From Micavibrio sp. (GTDB lineage: Bacteria; Pseudomonadota; Alphaproteobacteria; Micavibrionales; Micavibrionaceae), in the NCBI GenBank assembly GCA_019634145.1, contig JAHQVU010000033.1:1-53113 (forward strand): a stretch of DNA of 53,113 nt. Direction: 5' to 3'. The notes under the pieces are model-generated. The model was given only the letters and a program-made list of their open reading frames with translations, ran no database searches and was not told the origin of the DNA. Each line of letters begins with the position of its first letter. Position 1 is the stretch's first letter. Shown piece by piece: positions 31,877 to 42,071 of this stretch. Position numbers and translations under genes: made by a program.

Positions 31877-33163
31877 TTATTGATCGATGCCTGTTTGCAT
31901 TTCTGCCGGAAGTGTTACGGCGATCTTCGTAATCTGATGGCGTTGACGATTTAGGATATCAAAACGGAAACCATGGAACGTAAAACTTTGCCCAGCTTGC
32001 GGAATCATTTGCGCTTCATAGAGTATCAAGCCCGCCAGTGTTGAATAATCTTCATCCGGCAAGCCCCACTCGAATTCACGGTTCAAGTCACGGATGGTAA
32101 CCGTTCCGTCAATCACATAGCGACCATTTTTCTGTACCAACACTCCCGGCACTGCGCGGTCATGCTCGTCATCGATCTCGCCGACGATTTCTTCCAGAAT
32201 ATCTTCCAGCGTTACAATACCCATGAACGATCCATACTCATCAACCACAATGGCAAAATGCTCCTGCTTCTCGCGAAACTCTTGCAGCTGGTCGAAGAGG
32301 TTGGTTGTCTCTGGCACAAAGCGAGGCTCGAGCATGATGTGGTGCATGTCCACCTTATCGACATCGCCTTTACATGCGCTAAGCTCGCGCAATAGCAACT
32401 TGGCATGGATGACCCCAATGATATTGTCCATATCATCCTGCCATACTGGGATACGAGTGTGAGGGCTTTCCAGCACTATGTCGATAATATCTTGCATCTT
32501 CGCATCGGCATCTGCCATCGTCACAATTCTGCGGTGGGTCATAATGTCTTCCACAGGAACATCGGCAAGCTCCAGAATAGAGCGCAGCATCGCGCGCTGT
32601 TCTTGCGTTTCTTGCTCTGGCCCTTGGTGCATCTCAATCACTCCGCGCAGCAATTCCAGGTGTGATCCTGCTGAAACTTTGGAAATATCGATGCCAAACA
32701 GCCTCAAAGTCATGCGCGCGATCCATGTGACCATCTCGGTAATTGGGGCAAAAATGAGGATTATCACCCTGATAATTGGCGCAATACGCATAGACAGGCT
32801 TTCTGCATGATGCAGGGCATATGTCTTTGGTAATACTTCCGCGAAGATAAGTACCAGCATTGTCATGACCAGAGTTGCGTATACTACGCCTGCTTCACCG
32901 ACCATCTTGATCAACACACTTGTGGCAAGGGCGGAGGCTAGAATGTTTACGAGGTTGTTACCTAAAAGCAGCGCGCCGATCATGCGGTCTTTCTGGTCGC
33001 GAATGCGATTGACCATCGCTGCCCGATTGTTGCCTTCCTTCTCGCGGTTAATCATTCGTACGCGGGATGCGCCCGTAAGTGCAGTTTCGGAGCTAGAAAA
33101 GAATGCTGAAAACAGCAGGAGGACAAATATAATTACGACAGGGATGAGAATTTCGATGACCAT
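31877..33163 (-). CDS. CNNM/CorC-type membrane protein with CBS domains
   Basis: This is an HlyC/CorC family inner-membrane protein linked to magnesium and cobalt efflux or sensing. The 428 residues hold an N-terminal CNNM (DUF21) domain with four hydrophobic segments. They include SSSETALTGASRVR after the first segment, GNNLVNILASALATSVL, and AEVLPKTYALHH. A CBS pair follows (MTHRRIVTMADADAKMQDI ... GVIHAKLLLRE and the second ending in DEYGSFMGIVTLEDILEEIVGEI). The transporter-associated C-terminal domain has DGTVTIRDLNREFEWGLP. It overlaps the aroB 3' end by 31 bases, so it is coupled to aroB. The order aroK-aroB-CNNM is common in alphaproteobacteria. Confidence 0.93.
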   Translation of the reverse strand: MVIEILIPVVIIFVLLLFSAFFSSSETALTGASRVRMINREKEGNNRAAMVNRIRDQKDRMIGALLLGNNLVNILASALATSVLIKMVGEAGVVYATLVMTMLVLIFAEVLPKTYALHHAESLSMRIAPIIRVIILIFAPITEMVTWIARMTLRLFGIDISKVSAGSHLELLRGVIEMHQGPEQETQEQRAMLRSILELADVPVEDIMTHRRIVTMADADAKMQDIIDIVLESPHTRIPVWQDDMDNIIGVIHAKLLLRELSACKGDVDKVDMHHIMLEPRFVPETTNLFDQLQEFREKQEHFAIVVDEYGSFMGIVTLEDILEEIVGEIDDEHDRAVPGVLVQKNGRYVIDGTVTIRDLNREFEWGLPDEDYSTLAGLILYEAQMIPQAGQSFTFHGFRFDILNRQRHQITKIAVTLPAEMQTGIDQ

Positions 33164-34296
33164 AATCCTCTGCCTCCCTTCCGTTCGCCGCCAAGTGAAT
33201 CTATGAGGACATCGCGTACGAGTGTTTCCGGTACATCGCCGCTTGTAAAGGCATCGCCGATACCGTTGACGAGTATAAATACCATATTCCCGCTTACAAC
33301 CTTTTTGTCGCGGCGCATAATGTCAATCAGCCTATCCACATTGGTTGAGAGCTTCTCGACCTCATAGGCATGTGTAGGTAAACCGATATGCATGAAGTGA
33401 CGCTCGACAAGCTCTAAATCTTTTCGTGGACATAGTCCCAAACGCACAGATAAATCAAAGGCCATTACAGTGCCAATGGCCACGGCCTCACCGTGCAGTA
33501 ATGTGCCGTTATATCCCGCTTCCGCTTCAAGTGCATGGCCAAATGTGTGGCCGAGATTGAGAAGAGCACGGCGTCCGCGCTCCTGTTCGTCTTTTTCCAC
33601 TATCTTGGCCTTGGCGCGGCAACTGGTCTCTATGGCATATGCCACGGCAGTTTCGTCCAACGCAATAACCTTATCCGCATTATCCTCGAGCCATTCGAAA
33701 AAGCCACGATTTTGAATGAGTCCGTATTTGAAAACCTCCGCATATCCTGCCAGCAACTCGCGCTGGGGAAGGGTTTTAAGTGTCTCAATGTCTGCTACAA
33801 CGGCGCCTGGTTGATAAAACGCGCCAATCAGGTTTTTGCCCTGTTTCGTATTAATGCCGGTCTTCCCGCCGACCGAGCTGTCAACCTGTGAGAGCAGGGT
33901 GGTTGGCACCTGAATGTATGGTACGCCGCGCATAGCGATCGAAGCGCAAAAGCCAGTTAAATCACCGATTACCCCTCCACCCACGGCTATAACCATTGAA
34001 TTGCGGTTCAGGCCGTTTTGCAGGAAAAAGTTGGAAACTTTTTGAACTTCTTCGAAAGATTTCGTTTTTTCACCGGCAGGGAGTGTTATAAGTTTTACGT
34101 TGCCTTCCGTATGCTTTGTGAGGTTGTCTACGACCAATTGTGCGTATGATTCTACATTTTTATCGGTAACAACGAAAATGTTGCGCTTGCCCAATTCATT
34201 AGGCACAAAATCATGTATGCGATTTAACAACCCTGCACCGACATAAATGTCATAGGAGCGCTTATCCAGATTAATTGTAAGAATTCTCGTTTCCAT
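33133..34296 (-). CDS. aroB: 3-dehydroquinate synthase
   Basis: This NAD- and zinc-dependent second step of the shikimate pathway makes 3-dehydroquinate from DAHP. The 387 residues are slightly longer than usual because of a C-terminal tail (GGERKGGRGLWSSKFSS). Motifs are AVGGGVIGDLTGFCASIAMRG, PTTLLSQVDSSVGGKTGIN, AGYAEVFKYGLI, NLGHTFGHALEAEAGY and LLHGEAVAIGTVMA with the zinc-binding His residues. The 3' tail lies in the overlap with the CNNM gene, so it may be shaped by that overlap. It follows aroK by 42 bases. Confidence 0.97.
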   Translation of the reverse strand: METRILTINLDKRSYDIYVGAGLLNRIHDFVPNELGKRNIFVVTDKNVESYAQLVVDNLTKHTEGNVKLITLPAGEKTKSFEEVQKVSNFFLQNGLNRNSMVIAVGGGVIGDLTGFCASIAMRGVPYIQVPTTLLSQVDSSVGGKTGINTKQGKNLIGAFYQPGAVVADIETLKTLPQRELLAGYAEVFKYGLIQNRGFFEWLEDNADKVIALDETAVAYAIETSCRAKAKIVEKDEQERGRRALLNLGHTFGHALEAEAGYNGTLLHGEAVAIGTVMAFDLSVRLGLCPRKDLELVERHFMHIGLPTHAYEVEKLSTNVDRLIDIMRRDKKVVSGNMVFILVNGIGDAFTSGDVPETLVRDVLIDSLGGERKGGRGLWSSKFSSLS

Positions 34297-34338
34297 TACC
34301 CATATCCATAGGGCTAAACCCCGTTAAAAACAAGGGGG

Positions 34339-34857
34339 TTATTGCGCGAAAGTATCAAGAATGAGCTGAATGTTTTGTGAGGTGTGCGTTCCGTCATTCG
34401 GGACCCGTAAATGAGCTTGCTCATAAAGCGGCTTGCGCTCTTCATATATTTTTTCAAGGGTGGCTCTGGGGTGGTCGGTATTCAGTAAGGGGCGGTTTTT
34501 GCAGGTCTTTACTCTCTCCCAGACTGTGTCCAGCGGTGCATCGATCCAAACGAGGTGACTTTGCTCTTTAAGGAGCCCGCGGGTGTCGGCATCTACTATC
34601 GCGCCCCCACCCAAAGAAATAATGCACGTATCATCCTTTAAAAGTGCAGCGATGACGGCGCGTTCAGATGCTCGAAACTTGCTTTCCCCATACTGCTCGA
34701 AGATTGCGGCAACGTTGCTATTAGCACGTTCTTCAATAACGCTATCGGTGTCAAAGAGCTTTAGGCCGCTCTTTTTTGCGAGTAAGCGCCCAATGTGGCT
34801 TTTGCCACAGCCCATGATTCCTGTGAGTGCTATGGATTTTCTGATTTTATATTTCAT
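34339..34857 (-). CDS. aroK: Shikimate kinase
   Basis: This enzyme phosphorylates shikimate at the 3-hydroxyl. The 172-residue protein has the P-loop GIMGCGKSHIGRLLA near residue 13, the DTDSVIEE shikimate site, FRASERAVI, SLGGGAIVDADTRG and the adenine-binding lid region NRPLLNTDHP with ERKPLYEQAH. The P-loop Ser is followed by His instead of the common Thr/Val. Its stop is involved in a weak hairpin (34317-34340, aacccc/ggggtt) before aroB. It is divergent from xerD across a 410-base region. Confidence 0.95.
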   Translation of the reverse strand: MKYKIRKSIALTGIMGCGKSHIGRLLAKKSGLKLFDTDSVIEERANSNVAAIFEQYGESKFRASERAVIAALLKDDTCIISLGGGAIVDADTRGLLKEQSHLVWIDAPLDTVWERVKTCKNRPLLNTDHPRATLEKIYEERKPLYEQAHLRVPNDGTHTSQNIQLILDTFAQ

Positions 34858-34929
34858 GTGAATAACACTAGATTCTCGGTGGTTTTTCGTAAAGGCTTAC
34901 TTTATTAAACTCATAAACTTACTAACCTG

Positions 34930-34978
34930 AAAGGTATTTATGGGGGCAAAATTTGTTCAAGTTGTTGTAAATACCTTT
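34930..34978. repeat. Perfect 11-bp inverted repeat upstream of xerD
   Basis: aaaggtattta (34930-34940) and taaataccttt (34968-34978) are exact reverse complements separated by 27 bases. The repeat lies 26 bases upstream of the strong xerD promoter and about 70 bases upstream of aroK in the other direction. Its length and symmetry suit an operator for a dimeric regulator acting on the divergent genes. No regulator gene is adjacent. Confidence 0.55.
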
Positions 34979-35003
34979 GTATACACTTACAGCGAATGCA
35001 ATG

Positions 35004-35031
35004 TTGACAGTGTGAAAGTCTTTGATATGAT
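35004..35031 (+). promoter_or_regulatory. Near-consensus sigma-70 promoter for xerD
   Basis: A perfect -35 TTGACA (35004-35009) is followed after 16 bases by TATGAT (35026-35031), five of six matches to the -10 box. A second perfect TTGACA at 35056-35061 has a weaker TATTTA 17 bases on. Transcription from the first would start near 35038, leaving a leader of about 230 bases before the xerD start at 35268. The 410-base gap 34858-35267 holds only this and the inverted repeat. Confidence 0.7.
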
Positions 35032-35267
35032 GTACTCGGTAGTTTATGAAAAAACTTGACAAAGATCTGATAAGGCGTTATTTAGTTTTCACATAACTAA
35101 GAGTAGTGGCCTCTATCTTTCTTGAGTATGTTACCAAAGTCTTTATTAGTAAGGACTAAAAAATAACAGACATGCTTGCAGGCTGAAATTCAACAGTGTG
35201 GAGCGTGGATTTAAAAACAAAACCGGGTAGAACTAATCCGGGTGAGCTAAATAAAGGAGAATATAGT

Positions 35268-36260
35268 ATGGCAAGACCAGGTCGTCCGGCAATGCCCAAA
35301 CCAGATCTGCACCCGATGGTGGATTCATTTTTGGACATGCTTACAACAGAACGCGGTGCGGCGCTTAATACACGTCAGGCCTATTGGCGTGACTTGGCAG
35401 ATGTCAGTCTATACCTTCGTAACCAGCGTAAAACAGACATTGATATGGCGAGCACTGATGATCTTCAGGCTTACTTGAAAGATTTGAGTGAGAAAACTCA
35501 CGTAAAGGGTCAGAACAAGGGCAAGATTGCTGTTCGCACAGTTGCGCGCCGCCTCTCTGCGCTCCGTCAGTTCTATCGCTTTGCAGTTTCAGAAAATGTT
35601 CGTCAAGATGATCCGACATCTACAATCGAAAGCCCTAAGCAGGGTCGTACTTTGCCAAAAACATTGAGCGAATCTGAGGTTGATCAGTTGATTAAGACAG
35701 CGGCAGTGGCCGGAACACCAGAAAGTGTTCGTTTGGTTTGTTTGCTTGAAATGCTTTATGCAACAGGTCTTCGCGTTTCTGAGTTGGTCGGTCTTCCAAT
35801 GTCCGCTTTGGGCGATGACAACCAGTTCATTATCGTGGCCGGTAAAGCAGGGCGCGAGCGTATGGTTCCTCTTTCAGAAGCTGCACAAACTGCAATTAAA
35901 GACTATCTAAATGTACGCAAACGCTTTGTCGGTATTGAAGAATCCGCTAATCAAGAGCAGTGGGTATTCCCGTCTCGTACATCTGACAGTGGTCACCTTA
36001 CACGCCAGCGTTTTGCGCAGCTCCTTAAGGATTTGGCACGTGATGCCGAGGTTGATGAAAGTCGCGTTAGCCCGCACATTCTTCGTCACGCATTTGCAAC
36101 GCACCTTCTTTCACGTGGTGCAGACCTTCGCAGTGTGCAGAAAATGTTGGGTCACGCAGATATTGCAACAACTCAGATTTACACACACATTATCGGTGAA
36201 AATCTTGATAAAACAGTTGAGGAAAAGCACCCGCTGGCCAAGAAAACTAGCTCTAAATAA
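35268..36260 (+). CDS. xerD: Site-specific tyrosine recombinase XerD
   Basis: XerD resolves chromosome dimers at dif with XerC. I chose the ATG at 35268, after a clear aaaggaga site; upstream frame bases add 24 unrelated residues. The 330-residue protein has the SAM-like N-terminal core-binding domain (FLDMLTTERGAALNTRQAYWRDLADVSLYL) and the catalytic domain. Active-site residues are the R of ATGLRVSEL, the K of VAGKAGRERM, HxxR in SPHILRHAFATHLL, the H of GHADIATTQIY and its Tyr nucleophile. Codon use leans to cgt, gca and gtt, like a highly expressed gene. accA follows 107 bases later. XerD rather than XerC is inferred from the accA/aroK context. Confidence 0.92.
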   Translation: MARPGRPAMPKPDLHPMVDSFLDMLTTERGAALNTRQAYWRDLADVSLYLRNQRKTDIDMASTDDLQAYLKDLSEKTHVKGQNKGKIAVRTVARRLSALRQFYRFAVSENVRQDDPTSTIESPKQGRTLPKTLSESEVDQLIKTAAVAGTPESVRLVCLLEMLYATGLRVSELVGLPMSALGDDNQFIIVAGKAGRERMVPLSEAAQTAIKDYLNVRKRFVGIEESANQEQWVFPSRTSDSGHLTRQRFAQLLKDLARDAEVDESRVSPHILRHAFATHLLSRGADLRSVQKMLGHADIATTQIYTHIIGENLDKTVEEKHPLAKKTSSK

Positions 36261-36367: not shown

Positions 36368-37309
36368 ATGCTGGATTTTGAAAAACCCATTATTGAATTG
36401 GAAAAAAAGATCGCTGAACTGCGTCACGTTAGCAGTGATAGTGAGGTTAATATAGTTGACGAGATCGCGAAAATGCAATCCAAAGCTGATAAGCTCAAGC
36501 AACAAATCTATGGCAAACTTACGCCCGTTCAAAAGGTTCAGGTTGCTCGCCATGCTGAGCGCCCAAGCTTTGACGACTACATTAAGGGGTTCATAACCGA
36601 TTTCACGCCATTAGCGGGTGATAGAAATTTTGCCGAGGATCACGCGCTTCCCGGTGGTCTAGGGCGATTTAATGGTCGTCCATGTGTAATCATAGGGCAC
36701 GAAAAAGGTCATGATACACAAAGTCGTATCAAACATAATTTTGGTATGGCGCGCCCTGAGGGGTATAGAAAAGCGCAGCGCCTCATGGATATGGCTGCTC
36801 AATTTCAGCTGCCTGTTATTACGCTTGTTGATACAAAAGGTGCTTACCCCGGTCGAGGCGCGGAGGAGCGCGGGCAATCCGAGGCAATCGCGAAATCTAT
36901 TGAAAAGTGCTTGCGTACAGATGTACCAATAATCTCTGTTATTGTGGGAGAAGGCGGTTCTGGCGGCGCAATTGCAATTGCTGTAGCTGATAAAATTTAC
37001 ATGCTCGAGCACTCTGTCTACTCTGTAATCTCGCCGGAAGGGTGCGCCTCTATATTGTGGCGCAGTGCATCCCATGCAGATGAAGCCGCAACGGCCTTAA
37101 AGCTTACGGCCCAGGATTTGCATGGCCTGAAGCTTATTGATGGCATCATCGAAGAGCCAATAGGTGGTGCGCATAGAAATATAGAAGAAACAATCGCGCG
37201 TGTCGGCGCCCAGATTAAAAAGGGCTTAAGCGAGATGACCCCATGGGATAGCGGGGACATCATCGCAAAACGTAGAGCGAAGTTTTTGGAGTTTGGTAGA
37301 AATATTTAA
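36368..37309 (+). CDS. accA: Acetyl-CoA carboxylase carboxyltransferase alpha subunit
   Basis: This subunit transfers the carboxyl group from biotin to acetyl-CoA for fatty-acid synthesis. The 313 residues match AccA. Motifs are [17 protein letters not shown] at the N-terminus, [54 protein letters not shown] and the oxyanion region [38 protein letters not shown]. accD lies elsewhere. The xerD-accA pairing is frequent in alphaproteobacteria. It shares the TTAA tetranucleotide at 37306-37309 with the stop of the convergent RHH gene. Confidence 0.98.
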
Positions 37310-37710
37310 GCGCTCATTGCCTTATGAGAGATTGGCTTTTCCAACGTTTCAGGGTTTCTGCGGCGGCTAATCGGATTATTTATGCGAGCGCGATTCCTCA
37401 TATGGTTTATGTTGCCATGTCCAGCCTTGGCGTGTCCGCTTTCTGTTGTTGCGGCGCGAAAATAAAGCATGATAAATACGCGAATTGCGGCAGTCAGTGA
37501 CGTGTTCTCTTTTTTTCTTAAATAGATAAGCGTGCAGATTTCATGGATGCTGCACAGCTCTCTGTCTGCAATTTCATTGAGTGCAGACCACATTTCGGGC
37601 TCTAGCCTTACTGATGTGCGCCTACTATTAACGGTAATATTTTTGCTAACTAGAGTGCTTTTGATTTCATTTTTTTCGTAGAAAGTATTTGTGGAATTAA
37701 AATCTTTCAT
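37306..37710 (-). CDS. RHH_4 (ribbon-helix-helix) protein
   Basis: The 134-residue protein has the pattern [23 protein letters not shown] (about residues 29-51), then [10 protein letters not shown] and [17 protein letters not shown]. This matches ribbon-helix-helix domain RHH_4, common in alphaproteobacteria as a small regulator next to central genes; the Thr-Ser-Val-Arg-Leu stretch is the DNA-contacting strand. The ribosome site aaaaggga lies just before the ATG. A basic tail of about 45 residues ([19 protein letters not shown] ... [11 protein letters not shown]) could add DNA affinity. The target is unknown; accA and bolA are its neighbours. Confidence 0.82.
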
Positions 37711-37811: not shown

Positions 37812-38072
37812 TTATTCAGTGGTTGTTGTAATGCTCAGAGCGTGTATTTTACTATCCATTAACTCTTTTAGGCAGGAGTATATTAAGGTATGACACTCAA
37901 TTTTGCTTTTGCCATAAAACGTCTTTGATGCAATTATGAGTTTAAAGTGACTTTCGCCAGTTCCGTTGTCACCCGCATGTCCTTTATGTTTACTGCTTTC
38001 GTTAATTATTTCTAACCTTGACGGAGAGAATTCCTGAACTATTTTTCTTCTAATTTCTTGCTCTACTGACAT
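37812..38072 (-). CDS. bolA: BolA family protein
   Basis: BolA proteins bind [2Fe-2S] monothiol glutaredoxins and act in iron or stress regulation. The sequence RLEIINESSKHKGH, then GESHFKLIIASKTFYGKSKIECHTLIYSCLKELMDSKIHALSI, is the BolA fold, with the conserved H of ESHF and the C/H position near SKIECH. The start is uncertain between ATG 38072 (MSVEQEIRRKI, 86 residues) and ATG 38087 (91 residues); both lack a strong ribosome site. I chose the shorter, which matches other BolA starts. It is divergent from the J-domain gene with fewer than 45 bases between them. Confidence 0.9.
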   Translation of the reverse strand: MSVEQEIRRKIVQEFSPSRLEIINESSKHKGHAGDNGTGESHFKLIIASKTFYGKSKIECHTLIYSCLKELMDSKIHALSITTTTE

Positions 38073-38101
38073 TTTAACTTCATCCAATCGTATGATTTGC
38101 T

Positions 38102-38107
38102 TATAAT
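38102..38107 (+). promoter_or_regulatory. TATAAT close to the J-domain start codon
   Basis: A perfect -10 box TATAAT (38102-38107) lies 6 bases before the J-domain ATG at 38114. No Shine-Dalgarno sequence is present. A -35 at 38079-38084 (TTCATC) is only a 3 of 6 match. Transcription would begin at or next to the A of the ATG, implying a leaderless message. Confidence 0.4.
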
Positions 38108-38113
38108 ATATAT

Positions 38114-38731
38114 ATGGTCAAAATAAATTTGAAACCCAAATCGCCGCATTTTGCCGACGGTAGAGAAAAAGAGCAAGAGCCTCAGCTTTGCGAAATGCCG
38201 GGTTGTATGGGTGTGGGGGAGCATAAGGCGCCCAAACACCGCGGCCTGAATGAGTATTATATGTTTTGCGTGGACCACGTCCGTGAATACAATAAATCAT
38301 GGAACTACTTTGACGGTCTTTCCGATGATGAGGTGCAAGAGCATATGTACAAGAGCATGTATGGTGATCGGCCAACGTGGAAATATGGCGTAAATGGAAA
38401 TGCCGAGGATGAGCTCTATGACAAGATTTGGCGCTCTTATCATGGCGAGGATGCCCCGCCGCACCGCGGGGAAAGCGAAAAAGAGCGCCGCGATAAGTTT
38501 CATGCCACTCATAAAACGCCAGAACATGAAGCGCTGGCTGTTATGGGATTAGAGCCACCTGTGGATCTTAAGGCAATTAAAGTGCGCTATAAAGAACTCG
38601 CGAAAAAGCATCATCCTGACCTTAACAAGGGCTGTCAAAAATCCGAAGAGCAGCTTAAGAAAATAAATATGGCCTATACAGTATTAAGGCTTGCCTATGA
38701 AGCTTACGAAAAACTCCCTCAAAAAGGTTGA
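38114..38731 (+). CDS. J-domain (DnaJ-like) protein with Cys/His-rich N-terminus
   Basis: This is a predicted Hsp70 co-chaperone. The 205-residue protein has, at the N-terminus, CEMPGCMGVGEHKAPKHRGL and FCVDHVREYNKSWNYFDGL (a Cys/His pattern like a metal-binding knuckle). At the C-terminus is a J domain with KHHPDLNKG (the HPD loop, near residue 163), ending in LAYEAYEKL. This architecture is the alphaproteobacterial protein found next to bolA and cobS. It lacks the Gly/Phe and zinc-finger domains of DnaJ itself, so it is a specialised J protein. It overlaps no neighbour; cobS starts about 100 bases downstream. Confidence 0.9.
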   Translation: MVKINLKPKSPHFADGREKEQEPQLCEMPGCMGVGEHKAPKHRGLNEYYMFCVDHVREYNKSWNYFDGLSDDEVQEHMYKSMYGDRPTWKYGVNGNAEDELYDKIWRSYHGEDAPPHRGESEKERRDKFHATHKTPEHEALAVMGLEPPVDLKAIKVRYKELAKKHHPDLNKGCQKSEEQLKKINMAYTVLRLAYEAYEKLPQKG

Positions 38732-38833
38732 TTTTTGACGCGCCAAGGCACAAAGTCACATCAGAAAATAAAATTCAGGCAACAGATTATGCAGCAAAAA
38801 GATAACCAGGATACCGAACGCGAAGATCATAGT

Positions 38834-39847
38834 ATGTCTTTCGACATTACGACGATCAAAGCGAAGGAGGGAAAGTATTCGACTATCCCCGATACAAAGG
38901 TAAATGTCCGTGATGTTTTTGGACTTGATATTGATTGGGAGGTTCCGGCTTTCAGTGAAGGCGGCCAGAATGTGCCTAATCCTGATCCAACATACCAGTT
39001 CGATCATGACACAACGCTGGCAATCCTGGCAGGCTTCTCGCATAACCGCCGCGTGATGGTGCAGGGCTATCACGGTACAGGTAAATCCACGCATATCGAG
39101 CAAGTCGCCGCGCGCCTGAATTGGCCATGCGTTCGCATTAACCTTGATAGCCATGTTAGCCGAACTGACCTGATCGGTAAGGATACGATTGTTTTGCAAG
39201 AAGGTAAGCAGATTACCAAGTGGCAGGAAGGTTTGCTGCCGTGGTCGCTACAAAACCCCGTTACACTTGTGTTTGATGAGTATGACGCCGGTCGTCCCGA
39301 CGTAATGTTCGTTATTCAGCGCGTGCTAGAGGCTGAAGGGCGCTTGACGCTTCTCGATCAAAACAAAGTGATCCGTCCGCACCCCGCCTTCCGTCTGTTC
39401 GCAACCGCCAACACAATTGGTCTTGGCGATACGACAGGTCTTTATCACGGCACGCAGGCGATTAACCAAGGGCAAATGGACAGATGGAATATTGTGACCA
39501 CGCTGAATTATCTGCCGCATGATGATGAGGCCAACATTATGCTCGCTAAATTCCCTGAATTCGATGATGCAAATGGGCGTGATGAAATTGACAAAATGGT
39601 GCAAGTGGCGGATTTAACGCGTCAGGGCTTTATCAATGGTGATCTCTCAACGCTTATGTCCCCGCGAACTGTAATTGCATGGATCGAGAATTTTGATATT
39701 TTCAAGGATCGTGAATTGGCTTTCCGCCTTGCGTTCCTTAATAAATGTGACGAAGCTGAGCGCCCAATCATTGCTGAATACTATCAGCGTAGCTTTAATG
39801 TTGAGCTGCCGCAAAGCGCCATTCGCGCGCAAAGTGTGGTGGGATAA
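38834..39847 (+). CDS. cobS: Cobaltochelatase subunit CobS, MoxR-type AAA+ ATPase
   Basis: CobS with CobT and CobN inserts cobalt into hydrogenobyrinate diamide in aerobic B12 synthesis. I chose ATG 38834 ([15 protein letters not shown], 337 residues); frames from 38735 (TTG) and 38789 are longer with an unrelated start. Motifs are the Walker [19 protein letters not shown], Walker [16 protein letters not shown], sensor 1 [23 protein letters not shown] and the MoxR-like QMDRWNIV. Both CobS and CobT are present but no cobN, cbi or cob genes are nearby, so the pair may serve another metal- or client-remodelling role. The small J-domain gene precedes it. Confidence 0.9.
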
Positions 39848-39859
39848 GTTTTAAGGTGA

Positions 39860-40117
39860 TTACCCGATTTTCGAGCCTTTATTTTGTGCAAACTCTGCGA
39901 CATGACCAAGACTTTTTTGAACTGTTTTGAGCGTCTCTTGCAAGGATTCGCTAATCGCCTGCGCTCCGCTTTCCTTGTTAAATCCACCACTTAAGAATTG
40001 TTGGCCCATATTAAATGTAAAAATGGCGGCAATAGCCATGAAGGCATATTTAAGTGCCTTAGCACCTAATCCTGTGACTGGATTGCTTTTGCTGCTGAAT
40101 AAATTGGTTAATCCCAT
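39860..40117 (-). CDS. Small membrane protein between cobS and cobT
   Basis: The 85-residue protein has one hydrophobic segment (KYAFMAIAAIFTFNMG, about residues 23-38) and a polar, helical C-terminus (QAISESLQETLKTVQKSLGHVAEFAQNKG). It runs opposite to cobS and cobT; its stop is 12 bases after the cobS stop. A short aagg site lies before the ATG. A single-TM helical protein of this type could anchor or regulate a complex, but no family is recognised. It could also be a spurious frame, although the intact amphipathic pattern argues against that. Confidence 0.5.
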   Translation of the reverse strand: MGLTNLFSSKSNPVTGLGAKALKYAFMAIAAIFTFNMGQQFLSGGFNKESGAQAISESLQETLKTVQKSLGHVAEFAQNKGSKIG

Positions 40118-40223
40118 TACACGCCTTATTATTTATTTGATTGCACTAATTTTACCATAGTCCCTTCATAATTAGCAAACTTCTGCGCTTCCTCTCTCCG
40201 CGCACCTTTGCTACAGTCACTTC

Positions 40224-42071
40224 ATGAGCGAAAATATCATTGATACTGAAAGCCTAAAACAGATCACATCTGCTGCCATGCGGACGCTAGCTGCGGATGT
40301 TGAAATGGATGCGATTTACTCGTCTGCGGAGGCGCCGGTAGGGCGTCTTTCTCCAACGGGTAGGCCACGTATACCCGCACCCAATATGAAGATGGATGAA
40401 CGCGCTCTGCGACTATTTAGGGGCTGCGCAGATATTCAGGCGCTCTATGCCCGCCACCATGATGAAAAGATGCACCGCAGGCTCGCCCCTTCTGATTTTA
40501 GCGCGCGAGAGGTTTTTGATGCTCTTGAGCAAGCCCGCTGCGAGGCGATAGGCGCCCGTAAAATGCGCGGGGTTGCTGCGAATATGAATGCAGTGCTGGA
40601 AGAAAAATGTAAACGCGCGGGCTTTGAGAGTATGGCTGATGCAGGTCAAATCGGTATGCACGATGCTCTCCATGTCATGGCGCGTCTCGCGCTTACAGGT
40701 GAGCCAATTCCACCTTCGGCGCAAAATCTGGTGAAGCTGTACGAGCCAATTCTAAAGCAACATTTTGGCGAAATGGATTTGTCGTCCCTCGCCGATGTGT
40801 TGAATGATCAGCAGGCCTTTGCCGCCCGCTCGAAAACACTTCTTCAAGCGCTGGGCGTGATTGAAGCCGATCAAGCCGATAGCGATGACTTGGATAGCGA
40901 TAGCGGCGCTGAGGATGAAAATAACGAAACCCCGCCCGAGGAAGAGGGTGAAAACCCGTCCGAAGAACAAGAAGAAGCCGACCAATCTGGCATGGATGAA
41001 AGCATCACGGAAGCAGAAGATGATTTCGACGAAATGGACGGCTCTTATGATGAAGGGCAGGATGATGATCTGGGCGGTGAAGGGCAAGCTGATCAAGCCG
41101 CAGGCCCTTCCAAGCAGCACCATGACGCAGCCGACAGTGGTCCACATGGTATGTATGAAGTCTATACCACCGCCTTTGATGAGGAGGTCGGTGCACAAGA
41201 ATTGGCTGAAAGCTTCGAGCTTGAACGCCTGCGCAAAATGCTGGACGAACAGCTCTCTGCCCACGCAAATGTGATTACAAAACTCGCCAATCGCCTGCAG
41301 CGTAAACTCATGGCCCAGCAGCAACGCTCCTGGCGCTTTGATCTGGAGGAGGGTGTTATACACGCCCCGCGTCTGGCGCGTATCATCGCTAACCCGACTG
41401 TGCCCTTAACCTTCAAGCAAGAGCGGGAGCAGGAGTTTCGCGATACAGTGGTGACGCTCTTAATTGATAATTCAGGCTCTATGCGCGGACGTCCGATTGC
41501 TTTGGCAGCTATGAGCGCGGATATCATCGCCCGTACGCTTGAGCGTTGCGGTGTGAAGGTCGAGGTCCTCGGCTTCACCACCCGGGCATGGAAGGGCGGT
41601 AAATCCCGCGAGCTATGGCAGGAGCAAGGCAGGCCGCCAATGCCCGGTCGCCTCAACGACCTGCGCCATATCATCTATAAAGCCGCCGATGCGCCCATGC
41701 GCCGCACGCGAAAGAATATCGGCCTGATGCTTAAAGAAGGTATTTTAAAAGAAAATATCGACGGCGAAGCTTTGGTCTGGGCCTATAATCGCCTTGCCAA
41801 ACGCCCTGAGGCACGCAAAATTTTAATGGTTATATCGGACGGCGCACCGGTCGATGATTCAACCCTGTCGGTTAACCCCACAAACTTGCTGGAAGCTGAC
41901 CTGCGCAGTGTCATAAAATGGATTGAGGATAAGAGTAAGGTTGAATTAACCGCCATCGGGATTGGACATGATGTTACGCGTTATTACGAGCGCGCTTTAA
42001 CTATATCCGATGCAGATGCGCTAGCTGGCGCTCTGGTAGGACAGTTAGCTGATTTGTTTGAGGATGCTTAG
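40224..42071 (+). CDS. cobT: Cobaltochelatase subunit CobT, VWA-domain protein
   Basis: CobT is the MIDAS-containing partner of CobS. The 615 residues start [11 protein letters not shown]. The N-terminal domain (about 1-210) is followed by a highly acidic linker (about 215-295, Glu/Asp with [17 protein letters not shown]) and a helical segment. The C-terminal von Willebrand A domain has the MIDAS motif [14 protein letters not shown] near residue 415, the Thr-rich [16 protein letters not shown], the metal Asp of [13 protein letters not shown] and a final AIGIGHDV. The frame is complete and close to the 600-640 of the family. It follows cobS by about 375 bases, with the small minus-strand membrane gene between. 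Confidence 0.93.

Follow-up and report, generated by a model that had tools for sequence, protein, structure and literature searches.

The window, a stretch of 53,113 nucleotides from Micavibrio sp., carries the genes cobS and cobT beside bolA and a J-protein gene, in a block that recurs across the Alphaproteobacteria in genomes with and without a match for CobN. It is very likely that CobS and CobT (CobST) have a function apart from CobN. The explanation that we favour, by a modest degree, is that CobST constitutes an AAA+/MIDAS remodelling motor acting with an Hsp70 co-chaperone and BolA, which would mature iron or other metal enzymes and be lent to CobN where B12 is produced.

Gene content and organization of the locus

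The genes of the locus are detailed in Table 1. The grouping of cobS and cobT with bolA and a J-protein gene, proposed in the sequence-only reading, was confirmed for all four genes by Pfam and NCBIfam, and none of the neighbouring genes scanned with these two collections was a cobalamin gene, as had also been stated. The start of cobS is probably the one listed; it is uncertain, with an alternative ATG at 38789. The gene accA is likewise placed upstream in three relatives of the same family. Promoter- and terminator-like sites at the locus showed no clear excess over shuffled sequence.

Table 1. Features of the bolA, J and cobST locus (positions in the window).
Feature	Position	Strand	Identification and remarks
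accA	36368..37309	+	Pfam ACCA, 2.9e-140; upstream neighbour
Ribbon-helix-helix (RHH_4) protein	37306..37710	-	Pfam PF13467, 3.8e-18
bolA (86 aa)	37812..38072	-	Pfam PF01722, 93.9 bits, 7.3e-27, cut-off 25.7; divergent from J gene
J-protein gene (205 aa)	38114..38731	+	Pfam DnaJ PF00226, 45.2 bits
J protein layout			Putative zinc domain N-terminal (C26, C31, C52, H55); J domain C-terminal, HPD 167-169
cobS, AAA+ ATPase	38834..39847	+	Pfam CobS_N and AAA_5; NCBIfam TIGR01650
85-aa ORF between cobS and cobT	39860..40117	-	No family match
cobT, VWA/MIDAS partner	40224..42071	+	Pfam PF06213, 217.7 bits; CobT_C, 315.3 bits

The 85-aa ORF had been counted as a member of the set, as a small membrane protein in between, and this part of the earlier description was not upheld. 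No family match was found in Pfam or NCBIfam, no convincing tblastn match among the loci compared (best E 0.10), and no phmmer match in 80 neighbourhoods from the class or in three relatives from the genus and family of this Micavibrio; its hydrophobicity was borderline (best 19-residue mean 1.45). Lacking a family and a conserved relative, the ORF was rejected as a conserved partner and it may be no gene at all.

Identity and relatives of CobS and CobT

The window CobS, with a Walker motif of 10 residues, scored 572 bits against TIGR01650, over the cut-off of 558.6. CobT, with the MIDAS motif DNSGSM, scored 714 bits against the NCBIfam model TIGR01651, under its equivalog cut-off of 759. Among PDB sequences, CobS matched CobS 9ujv (3e-159), midasin (2e-36), CbbQ (2e-12) and NorQ (3e-6), and CobT matched CobT 9uka (1e-176).

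The resemblance to MoxR-VWA chaperone pairs noted from the sequence was borne out, as CobS is an AAA+ relative of midasin, CbbQ and NorQ and a VWA/MIDAS partner, CobT, is encoded beside it. Pairs of the MoxR type are NorQ-NorD, CbbQ-CbbO and RavA-ViaA. The window pair differs from them in having no recognised client enzyme adjoining it and in the presence of a J protein and BolA, neither of which is known to accompany any of these three.

CobS and CobT are related over their full length to the subunits of the aerobic cobaltochelatase CobNST, from which the system in the window differs by the absence from its genome of CobN or any recognised late B12 gene and by the score of CobT under the equivalog cut-off. 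In the accessible text of PMC7689651 and PMC10206600, CobST forms, and purifies as, a complex apart from CobN, and in that of PMC12583661 CobS and CobT are accessory to CobN. Two-gene cobST clusters are also found in bacterial and archaeal tailed viruses, for which a hijack of the host CobN was suggested; they differ from the window in that CobN would come from the host and no J protein or BolA is mentioned in the part of the source available (PMC8651126).

The Mg-chelatase proteins ChlI/ChlD are likewise a two-subunit AAA+/VWA motor, of a related but different family. Frameshifting chlD (fs-chlD) genes were described in two bacteria that have neither of the two pathways nor the large subunit; both proteins are thought to derive from one gene by frameshifting, unlike cobS and cobT (PMC9227772, available text). 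A defence function of CobS, CobT or the J protein was rejected, PADLOC giving a weak AAA+ match for CobS only (IetA, 19.8 bits). The names cobS and cobT also denote other B12 enzymes, as in the accessible part of PMC12879404.

Cobalamin genes in the window's genome

A check of the whole genome for cobN and other cobalamin genes, called for in the sequence-only reading, was carried out, and no CobN, no CobB/CobQ-type protein and no cobalamin riboswitch was found. The genome is 92.5% complete, and CobN was sought with the profile PF02514 only, a broad family that catches both CobN and the Mg-chelatase subunit BchH. PF02514 gave no match in this genome, nor in three relatives of the same family, each 99% complete. 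Two GATase_3 matches were identified as PdxT (TIGR03800, 158.7 bits, cut-off 105.6) and as a PurQ-type protein (best model 207.8 bits, cut-off 298), thus not as CobB/CobQ, and the cobyric acid synthase model reached 26.8 bits against a cut-off of 273. The B12-binding domain PF02310 was not found above its cut-off in the window's genome, where a B12-binding match proved to be GMP reductase; two of the three family relatives had no PF02310 match and the third had one under the cut-off. Because CobN was not found and the J-protein gene and bolA adjoin, CobST probably has another job.

Distribution of CobST and CobN in Alphaproteobacteria

Matches to CobT and to PF02514 (CobN/BchH) were tallied in 385 alphaproteobacterial genomes. 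CobT was present in 292 of them, with a single match in 286, and PF02514 in 158. The two were strongly associated (odds ratio 19) and PF02514 without CobT was rare (5/158), in line with a link to B12; yet 139 of the 292 genomes with CobT had no PF02514 match, so that the co-occurrence put forward as a possible refutation does not refute a further role. Among the genomes at least 90% complete, the tallies give at least 117 of 252 CobT-bearing genomes without a PF02514 match. Together with the window's genome, these CobN-less genomes support well the proposed role beyond B12 synthesis. As CobT and CobN co-occur so strongly, CobST must take part in B12 synthesis as well in genomes that have CobN, and most likely powers CobN, the cobaltochelatase, in the B12-making lineages.

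CobS accompanied CobT in all of the 40 CobN-less genomes examined (of 139) and was found in 2 of 40 genomes examined among the 93 without CobT. The motifs were intact in the CobN-less loci: Walker A in 37/37, MIDAS in 40/40, HPD in 36/36 and C-C-C-H in 36/36. In a CobT tree of 84 rows, where the CobN-less rows were scattered, the CobN label required 21 changes, 9 of them forced by strong branches.

Conservation of the gene block

Eighty class neighbourhoods, 40 CobN-less and 40 CobN-bearing, were taken from the stronger CobT matches. The arrangement with bolA divergent from J-cobS-cobT was present in 69 of them, which excludes a chance grouping, since the order recurs across the class. It was kept in 36/40 CobN-less and 33/40 CobN-bearing neighbourhoods and therefore does not track B12 synthesis. 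In 80 named loci the linkage was looser, all four genes being present in 46 of the 71 having enough upstream sequence. Two Pelagibacteraceae records contained the whole block in genomes of about 1 Mb, neither of which had a PF02514 match. The set, described earlier as conserved in several alphaproteobacteria, is thus class-wide as regards the four genes, and the description does not extend to the small membrane protein.

The J protein was found in 280 of the 292 genomes with CobT (odds ratio 17), its N-terminal match being absent from the other 12, and in 54 of the 385 genomes it was present without CobT. Among 27 J loci from CobT-less genomes, 20 had neither bolA nor cobS beside J, so the J protein has a job needing neither. 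One genome possessed J and cobS but no cobT. At 14 loci where J lies outside the cobT neighbourhood, bolA was still beside it in 12 and cobS in 5. Recurring neighbours of J in the CobT-less genomes were aroK-, aroB-, xerD- and RHH-like families, each in 3 or 4 of the 27 loci and named by eye; proteins like the RHH_4 protein of the window adjoined J in 4/27, a likeness likewise judged by eye. No Fe-S assembly family was recognised among these recurring neighbours.

Characteristics of the J protein and BolA

The N-terminal C-C-C-H domain of the J protein was detected in 334/385 alphaproteobacterial genomes and in 0/189 other Pseudomonadota. Residues C26, C31, C52 and H55 and the HPD motif were conserved at 100% in 74 aligned J proteins and invariant in an alignment of 31 rows. 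This putative zinc domain probably binds zinc. The AlphaFold model of the protein had a mean pLDDT of 82.6 and the N-terminal domain was modelled as a hairpin-helix.

The top Foldseek matches were J domains (best E 3.1e-3). For the N-terminal domain Foldseek gave no match under E 0.001, and no Pfam family was common to its members. A single weak match was obtained among PDB sequences, 7sek (ZNG1/CBWD1-METAP1 zinc finger fusion, E 0.062), and the best Z scores with VIA-align were 4.6 for a fragment of Lsr2 and 3.2 for a zinc finger of A20; in sequence and structure the matches to small zinc fingers were weak. A link of this finger with the COG0523 metallochaperones, kin of CobW, is only an idea.

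The protein resembles HscB-type Fe-S co-chaperones in being small and having a J domain with HPD, and differs from them in that its J domain is C-terminal, behind the unnamed putative zinc domain. It scored 21.7 bits against the HscB model TIGR00714 (cut-off 46.8).

In the PDB, the window BolA had 14 sequence matches with an E of 0.001 or lower, several of which bear the name BolA; among its relatives there are BolA of E. coli, BolA-like protein 1 and a SufE-like protein from the chloroplast. Zinc finger protein 224, also among the matches, is evidently a chance hit. BolA proteins are known to act with monothiol glutaredoxins when [2Fe-2S] clusters are handled, and what the window protein shares with that system is its membership of the BolA family.

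Comparison with Caulobacter and the literature

Caulobacter, used as a control, had CobS and CobT matches and no PF02514 match, and it had a cobalamin riboswitch and B12-binding proteins. In the available text of PMC11870441, its cobT (CCNA_01367) is named as the exception among copper-stress genes, its disruption having a strong fitness effect under EDTA for which no number is given, and EDTA is said to lower intracellular iron. In Rhodobacter sphaeroides, according to the part of PMC5513736 available, 58 genes required on LB have no homologues in an essential-gene database, and among them the categories of cobalamin synthesis and transport are enriched; cobS is absent from its main text. The accessible portions of PMC10746277 and PMC8224329 contain nothing on cobS or cobT. 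In the literature searched, chiefly open-access papers, nothing was found that describes this cluster or an alphaproteobacterial CobST lacking CobN, nor was an interaction, client or biochemical result found for CobST of CobN-less species.

Proposed function and alternative explanations

In the proposed mechanism, CobS and CobT would make up a ring of the AAA+ type, driven by ATP and equipped with a MIDAS (VWA) platform, which would remodel client proteins other than CobN. Clients would be handed to Hsp70, to the ring or to both by the J protein, with its probable zinc-binding N-terminal domain, and BolA would be the connection to iron. Such a block would mature or repair enzymes with iron or other metal centres, chiefly under iron scarcity or copper toxicity. 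The computations show CobST without CobN, the pairing of CobS with CobT, linkage to J and BolA across the class irrespective of CobN, and intact motifs; a physical complex, a client and the iron role are what we infer. That the function of CobST concerns metal centres we regard as an even matter: the metal-centre assembly or remodelling suggested from the sequence is supported indirectly by the linkage with BolA and J, the AAA+ kinship and the Caulobacter cobT phenotype, and no client was found.

The block could also join two neighbours with two jobs, bolA and J being one unit and cobST another in a frozen ancestral gene order. J outlives CobT in 54/385 genomes, bolA-J is kept without adjoining cobS or cobT in 7 of the 14 displaced loci, and plain housekeeping genes are also near (corC-like in 41/80 and aroB-like in 35/80 loci, named by eye). 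This explanation is nevertheless rather unlikely, as the four-gene block is more frequent (69/80) than these flanks, which lie partly outside the stretches compared, J and CobT co-occur strongly, and cobS stays with J in 5 of the 14 cases in which cobT has moved. Likewise, CobST might be a relic of a B12 pathway since lost, surviving by chance or retained in case cobN is acquired again; the CobN-CobT co-occurrence fits this idea and makes CobN loss from B12-making ancestors likely in many lines. It is highly improbable, however, given the intact motifs, the constant presence of CobS in the CobN-less genomes examined, the retention of CobST in 139/385 genomes, the scatter of CobN-less rows over the CobT tree, and the block in Pelagibacteraceae genomes of such small size.

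Two further explanations keep CobST close to its annotated chemistry. It could act on imported corrinoids, in their salvage, remodelling or re-metallation, or repair B12 enzymes, as the B12-related features of Caulobacter would allow; this is improbable, since neither a cobalamin riboswitch nor a PF02310 match over the cut-off was found in the window's genome, and the family relatives agree as regards PF02310. Even less probable is a diverged large subunit that escapes detection and replaces CobN, so that CobST would still be a chelatase for cobalt or another tetrapyrrole. The use of PF02514 as sole profile and the score of the window CobT leave room for it, but this broad profile gave a match in 158 genomes of the 385 and no CobB/CobQ-type protein accompanies CobST in the window's genome.

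Over the class as a whole, we propose, tentatively and a little short of even confidence, that CobS and CobT are foremost the motor of a class-wide iron/Fe-S enzyme maturation machine (BolA, zinc-finger J protein, CobST), which B12 synthesis borrows by adding CobN. If so, a large bacterial class would possess an unstudied chaperone system combining BolA and a dedicated Hsp70 co-chaperone with an AAA+ ring, and a testable idea for the origin of the B12 chelatase motor would be at hand. As CobS and CobT carry the names of B12 enzymes in the family models, bacteria whose genomes show no CobN can be annotated as having a cobaltochelatase. The Pelagibacteraceae records are an example of a possible mis-credit of this kind.

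Gene content of the block and B12 synthesis

The four genes of the block were confirmed in the window by Pfam and NCBIfam scans, with 41 bases separating the start codons of bolA and the J-protein gene. CobS passed the NCBI equivalog cut-off, and CobT scored 714 bits, below its cut-off of 759.

Genes of the block and its upstream neighbours in the window
Feature	Position	Strand	Remarks
CorC/CNNM-type gene, aroB, aroK, XerD-type gene	31877-36260		upstream of the block
bolA	37812-38072	-	head to head with the J-protein gene
J-protein gene	38114-38731	+	
cobS	about 38834-39847	+	3' of the J-protein gene
cobT	40224-42071	+	after cobS

Of 80 loci, 41 have a corC-like and 35 an aroB-like gene upstream (names by eye), so the arrangement seems to be an old one in Alphaproteobacteria. 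With 77% identity, a Micavibrio record (L174) was one of the closest named matches to CobT, and the window therefore probably derives from a Micavibrio-like alphaproteobacterium. An 85-aa reverse ORF between cobS and cobT, taken in the sequence-only reading for a small membrane protein of the set, had no family and no convincing relative in profile and similarity searches and only borderline hydrophobicity, and was thus excluded.

The genome of the window (1.87 Mb, 87 contigs, 92.5% complete) showed no sign of B12 synthesis: no match to PF02514 (CobN/BchH) and no cobalamin riboswitch were found, the GATase_3 matches were only PdxT and a PurQ-type protein, and the sole B12-binding-domain match was below the cut-off and within GMP reductase. 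Profile searches gave no PF02514 match in three family relatives either, each 99% complete and with the same order accA, bolA, J, cobS, cobT. A missing contig could hide the gene in one genome, but is hardly the cause in four. The absence of cobN, first noted only for the surroundings of the block, thus extends to the whole genome as assembled and, with neither a CobB/CobQ-type protein nor a riboswitch, the cluster very probably acts here other than in making B12, as had been proposed.

Distribution of CobT and CobN in the class

Profile searches of a single sample of 385 alphaproteobacterial genomes gave CobT_C matches in 292 and PF02514 matches in 158, together in 153 and alone in 139 and five, respectively, with neither in 88. 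PF02514 includes the Mg-chelatase BchH, so the number for CobN itself is lower again. The difference is not due to incompleteness: of 315 genomes with completeness of 90% or more and contamination of 5% or less (CobT in 252, PF02514 in 135), at least 117 had CobT without PF02514. A CobS match (TIGR01650, E up to 1e-40) was present in 40/40 CobT-positive genomes without CobN examined versus 2/40 lacking CobT, namely G064 (68% complete) and G304. In G304 (2.6 Mb, rated 100% complete), the J-protein gene adjoins cobS without a CobT match (L162, 3724-5260, minus strand).

In a tree built from 84 CobT sequences, the presence of CobN, somewhat clustered, takes 21 changes, at least nine of them on strong branches, a count that does not separate loss from gain. 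The 22 named genomes comprised 14 with and eight without PF02514, the latter being Micavibrio sp. UBA5572, a Kordiimonas, a Sphingomonadaceae bacterium, Oceanibacterium hippocampi, Oleisolibacter albus and three Pelagibacteraceae of unstated completeness. Two Pelagibacteraceae loci (L247, L251) hold all four block genes in order, and the sequence of a third (L242) ends just before cobT.

CobT matches were single in 286 of the 292 genomes and double in the other six. In genomes with CobN, the J-linked CobST therefore most probably drives the chelatase as well, unless subunits of ChlI/ChlD type take that part. Five of the 158 PF02514-positive genomes (G007, G127, G247, G292, G339) lacked CobT_C; their motor may be of ChlI/ChlD type, or the genome incomplete.

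Gene order and linkage

Forty neighbourhoods with and 40 without CobN were taken from 143 usable CobT places of 150 listed. The complete divergent block was present in 36/40 without versus 33/40 with CobN (J protein 36 and 37, bolA 36 and 33, cobS 37 and 40), a wider conservation (69/80) than the "several alphaproteobacteria" of the sequence-only reading. Of 80 named loci, 71 of which extend at least 3.3 kb upstream of cobT, 66 showed cobS, 55 the J gene, 47 bolA and 46 the full set; in Rhodobacterales, many loci were looser. In 14 genomes picked for a J gene outside the cobT neighbourhood, bolA still adjoined J in 12 and cobS in five. The bolA-J link is thus the tightest, and no part of the linkage tracks cobN.

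A phytase/esterase-like gene, named by eye, lay on the same strand within four genes 3' of cobT in 25 of 80 loci (L031-L110), directly 3' in 16.

The J protein

Residues C26, C31, C52 and H55 of the N-terminal half were invariant in 74 aligned sequences, and an HPD-bearing J domain forms the C-terminal part. A profile of the N-terminal domain matched in 334/385 genomes and, in a phylum sample of 259, in 69/70 class members and 0/189 other Pseudomonadota; CobT reached at least 311 bits in 68/70 and only 20-172 bits in 7/189. Structure and profile comparisons gave no confident fold match for the N-terminal domain, whose AlphaFold model, a hairpin followed by a helix beginning beside C52 and H55, resembles small zinc fingers. 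This class-specific protein with its unnamed domain is the most novel part of the system.

Fifty-four genomes had J but no CobT, and 12 had CobT but no J. Among 27 J loci taken from the 54, bolA lay beside J in six, cobS in one and neither in 20, with aroK-, aroB-, xerD- or RHH-like neighbours persisting in a few; the role of J thus outlasts the loss of the others.

CBWD1/ZNG1 and CobW are COG0523 metallochaperones. The N-terminal domain (window 38165-38479) weakly matched 7sek, the METAP1 zinc finger fused to CBWD1 (E 0.062), and the J finger may be a docking site for a GTPase of this kind. In group f13 (e.g. G012, G145, G244, G325), each genome had two N-terminal matches, the second weaker and elsewhere, and one J gene (G043:C115:37864-38172) carries an in-frame TGA, a sequencing error or decay.

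Conserved motifs and possible function

Judged by its motifs, the machinery appears intact in CobN-less as in CobN-bearing loci: Walker A (37/37 and 39/40), Walker B pattern (34/37 and 34/40), MIDAS (40/40 in both), HPD and C-C-C-H (each 36/36 and 37/37). Among solved structures, the sequence of CobS was closest to CobS itself, followed by midasin, CbbQ and NorQ. The last three are AAA+ motors of protein remodelling, and the cluster is a variant within the AAA+/VWA motor theme, not a separate kind of system.

An ATP-driven CobS ring would remodel a metalloprotein client gripped by the MIDAS domain of CobT; Hsp70 would be recruited by the J protein, whose finger would bring in the client or the ring, and BolA with a glutaredoxin could link the system to Fe-S supply. 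CobN would count as a client in B12 makers only. Gene content, linkage, CobS-CobT pairing and motif conservation are observed; we infer every physical step, the nature of the client being the weakest.

Remodelling fits the copper and chelator effect of cobT (CCNA_01367) in Caulobacter, reported in one sentence without numbers in PMC11870441. That sentence singles out cobT among the copper-stress genes as the exception with a strong effect on fitness under EDTA, a treatment that according to the abstract lowers intracellular iron. The control genome of Caulobacter vibrioides had CobS and CobT and no PF02514 match in profile searches, so an effect of CobT is on record in a species without visible CobN. 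That species uses cobalamin (riboswitch and B12-binding matches), and a corrinoid role for CobT there is therefore possible.

Other bacteria are reported to have chlD-type motor pairs of unclear function that lack the large subunit (PMC9227772), viruses carry cobST pairs (PMC8651126), and the CobST complex was produced and purified separately from CobN (PMC7689651, PMC10206600).
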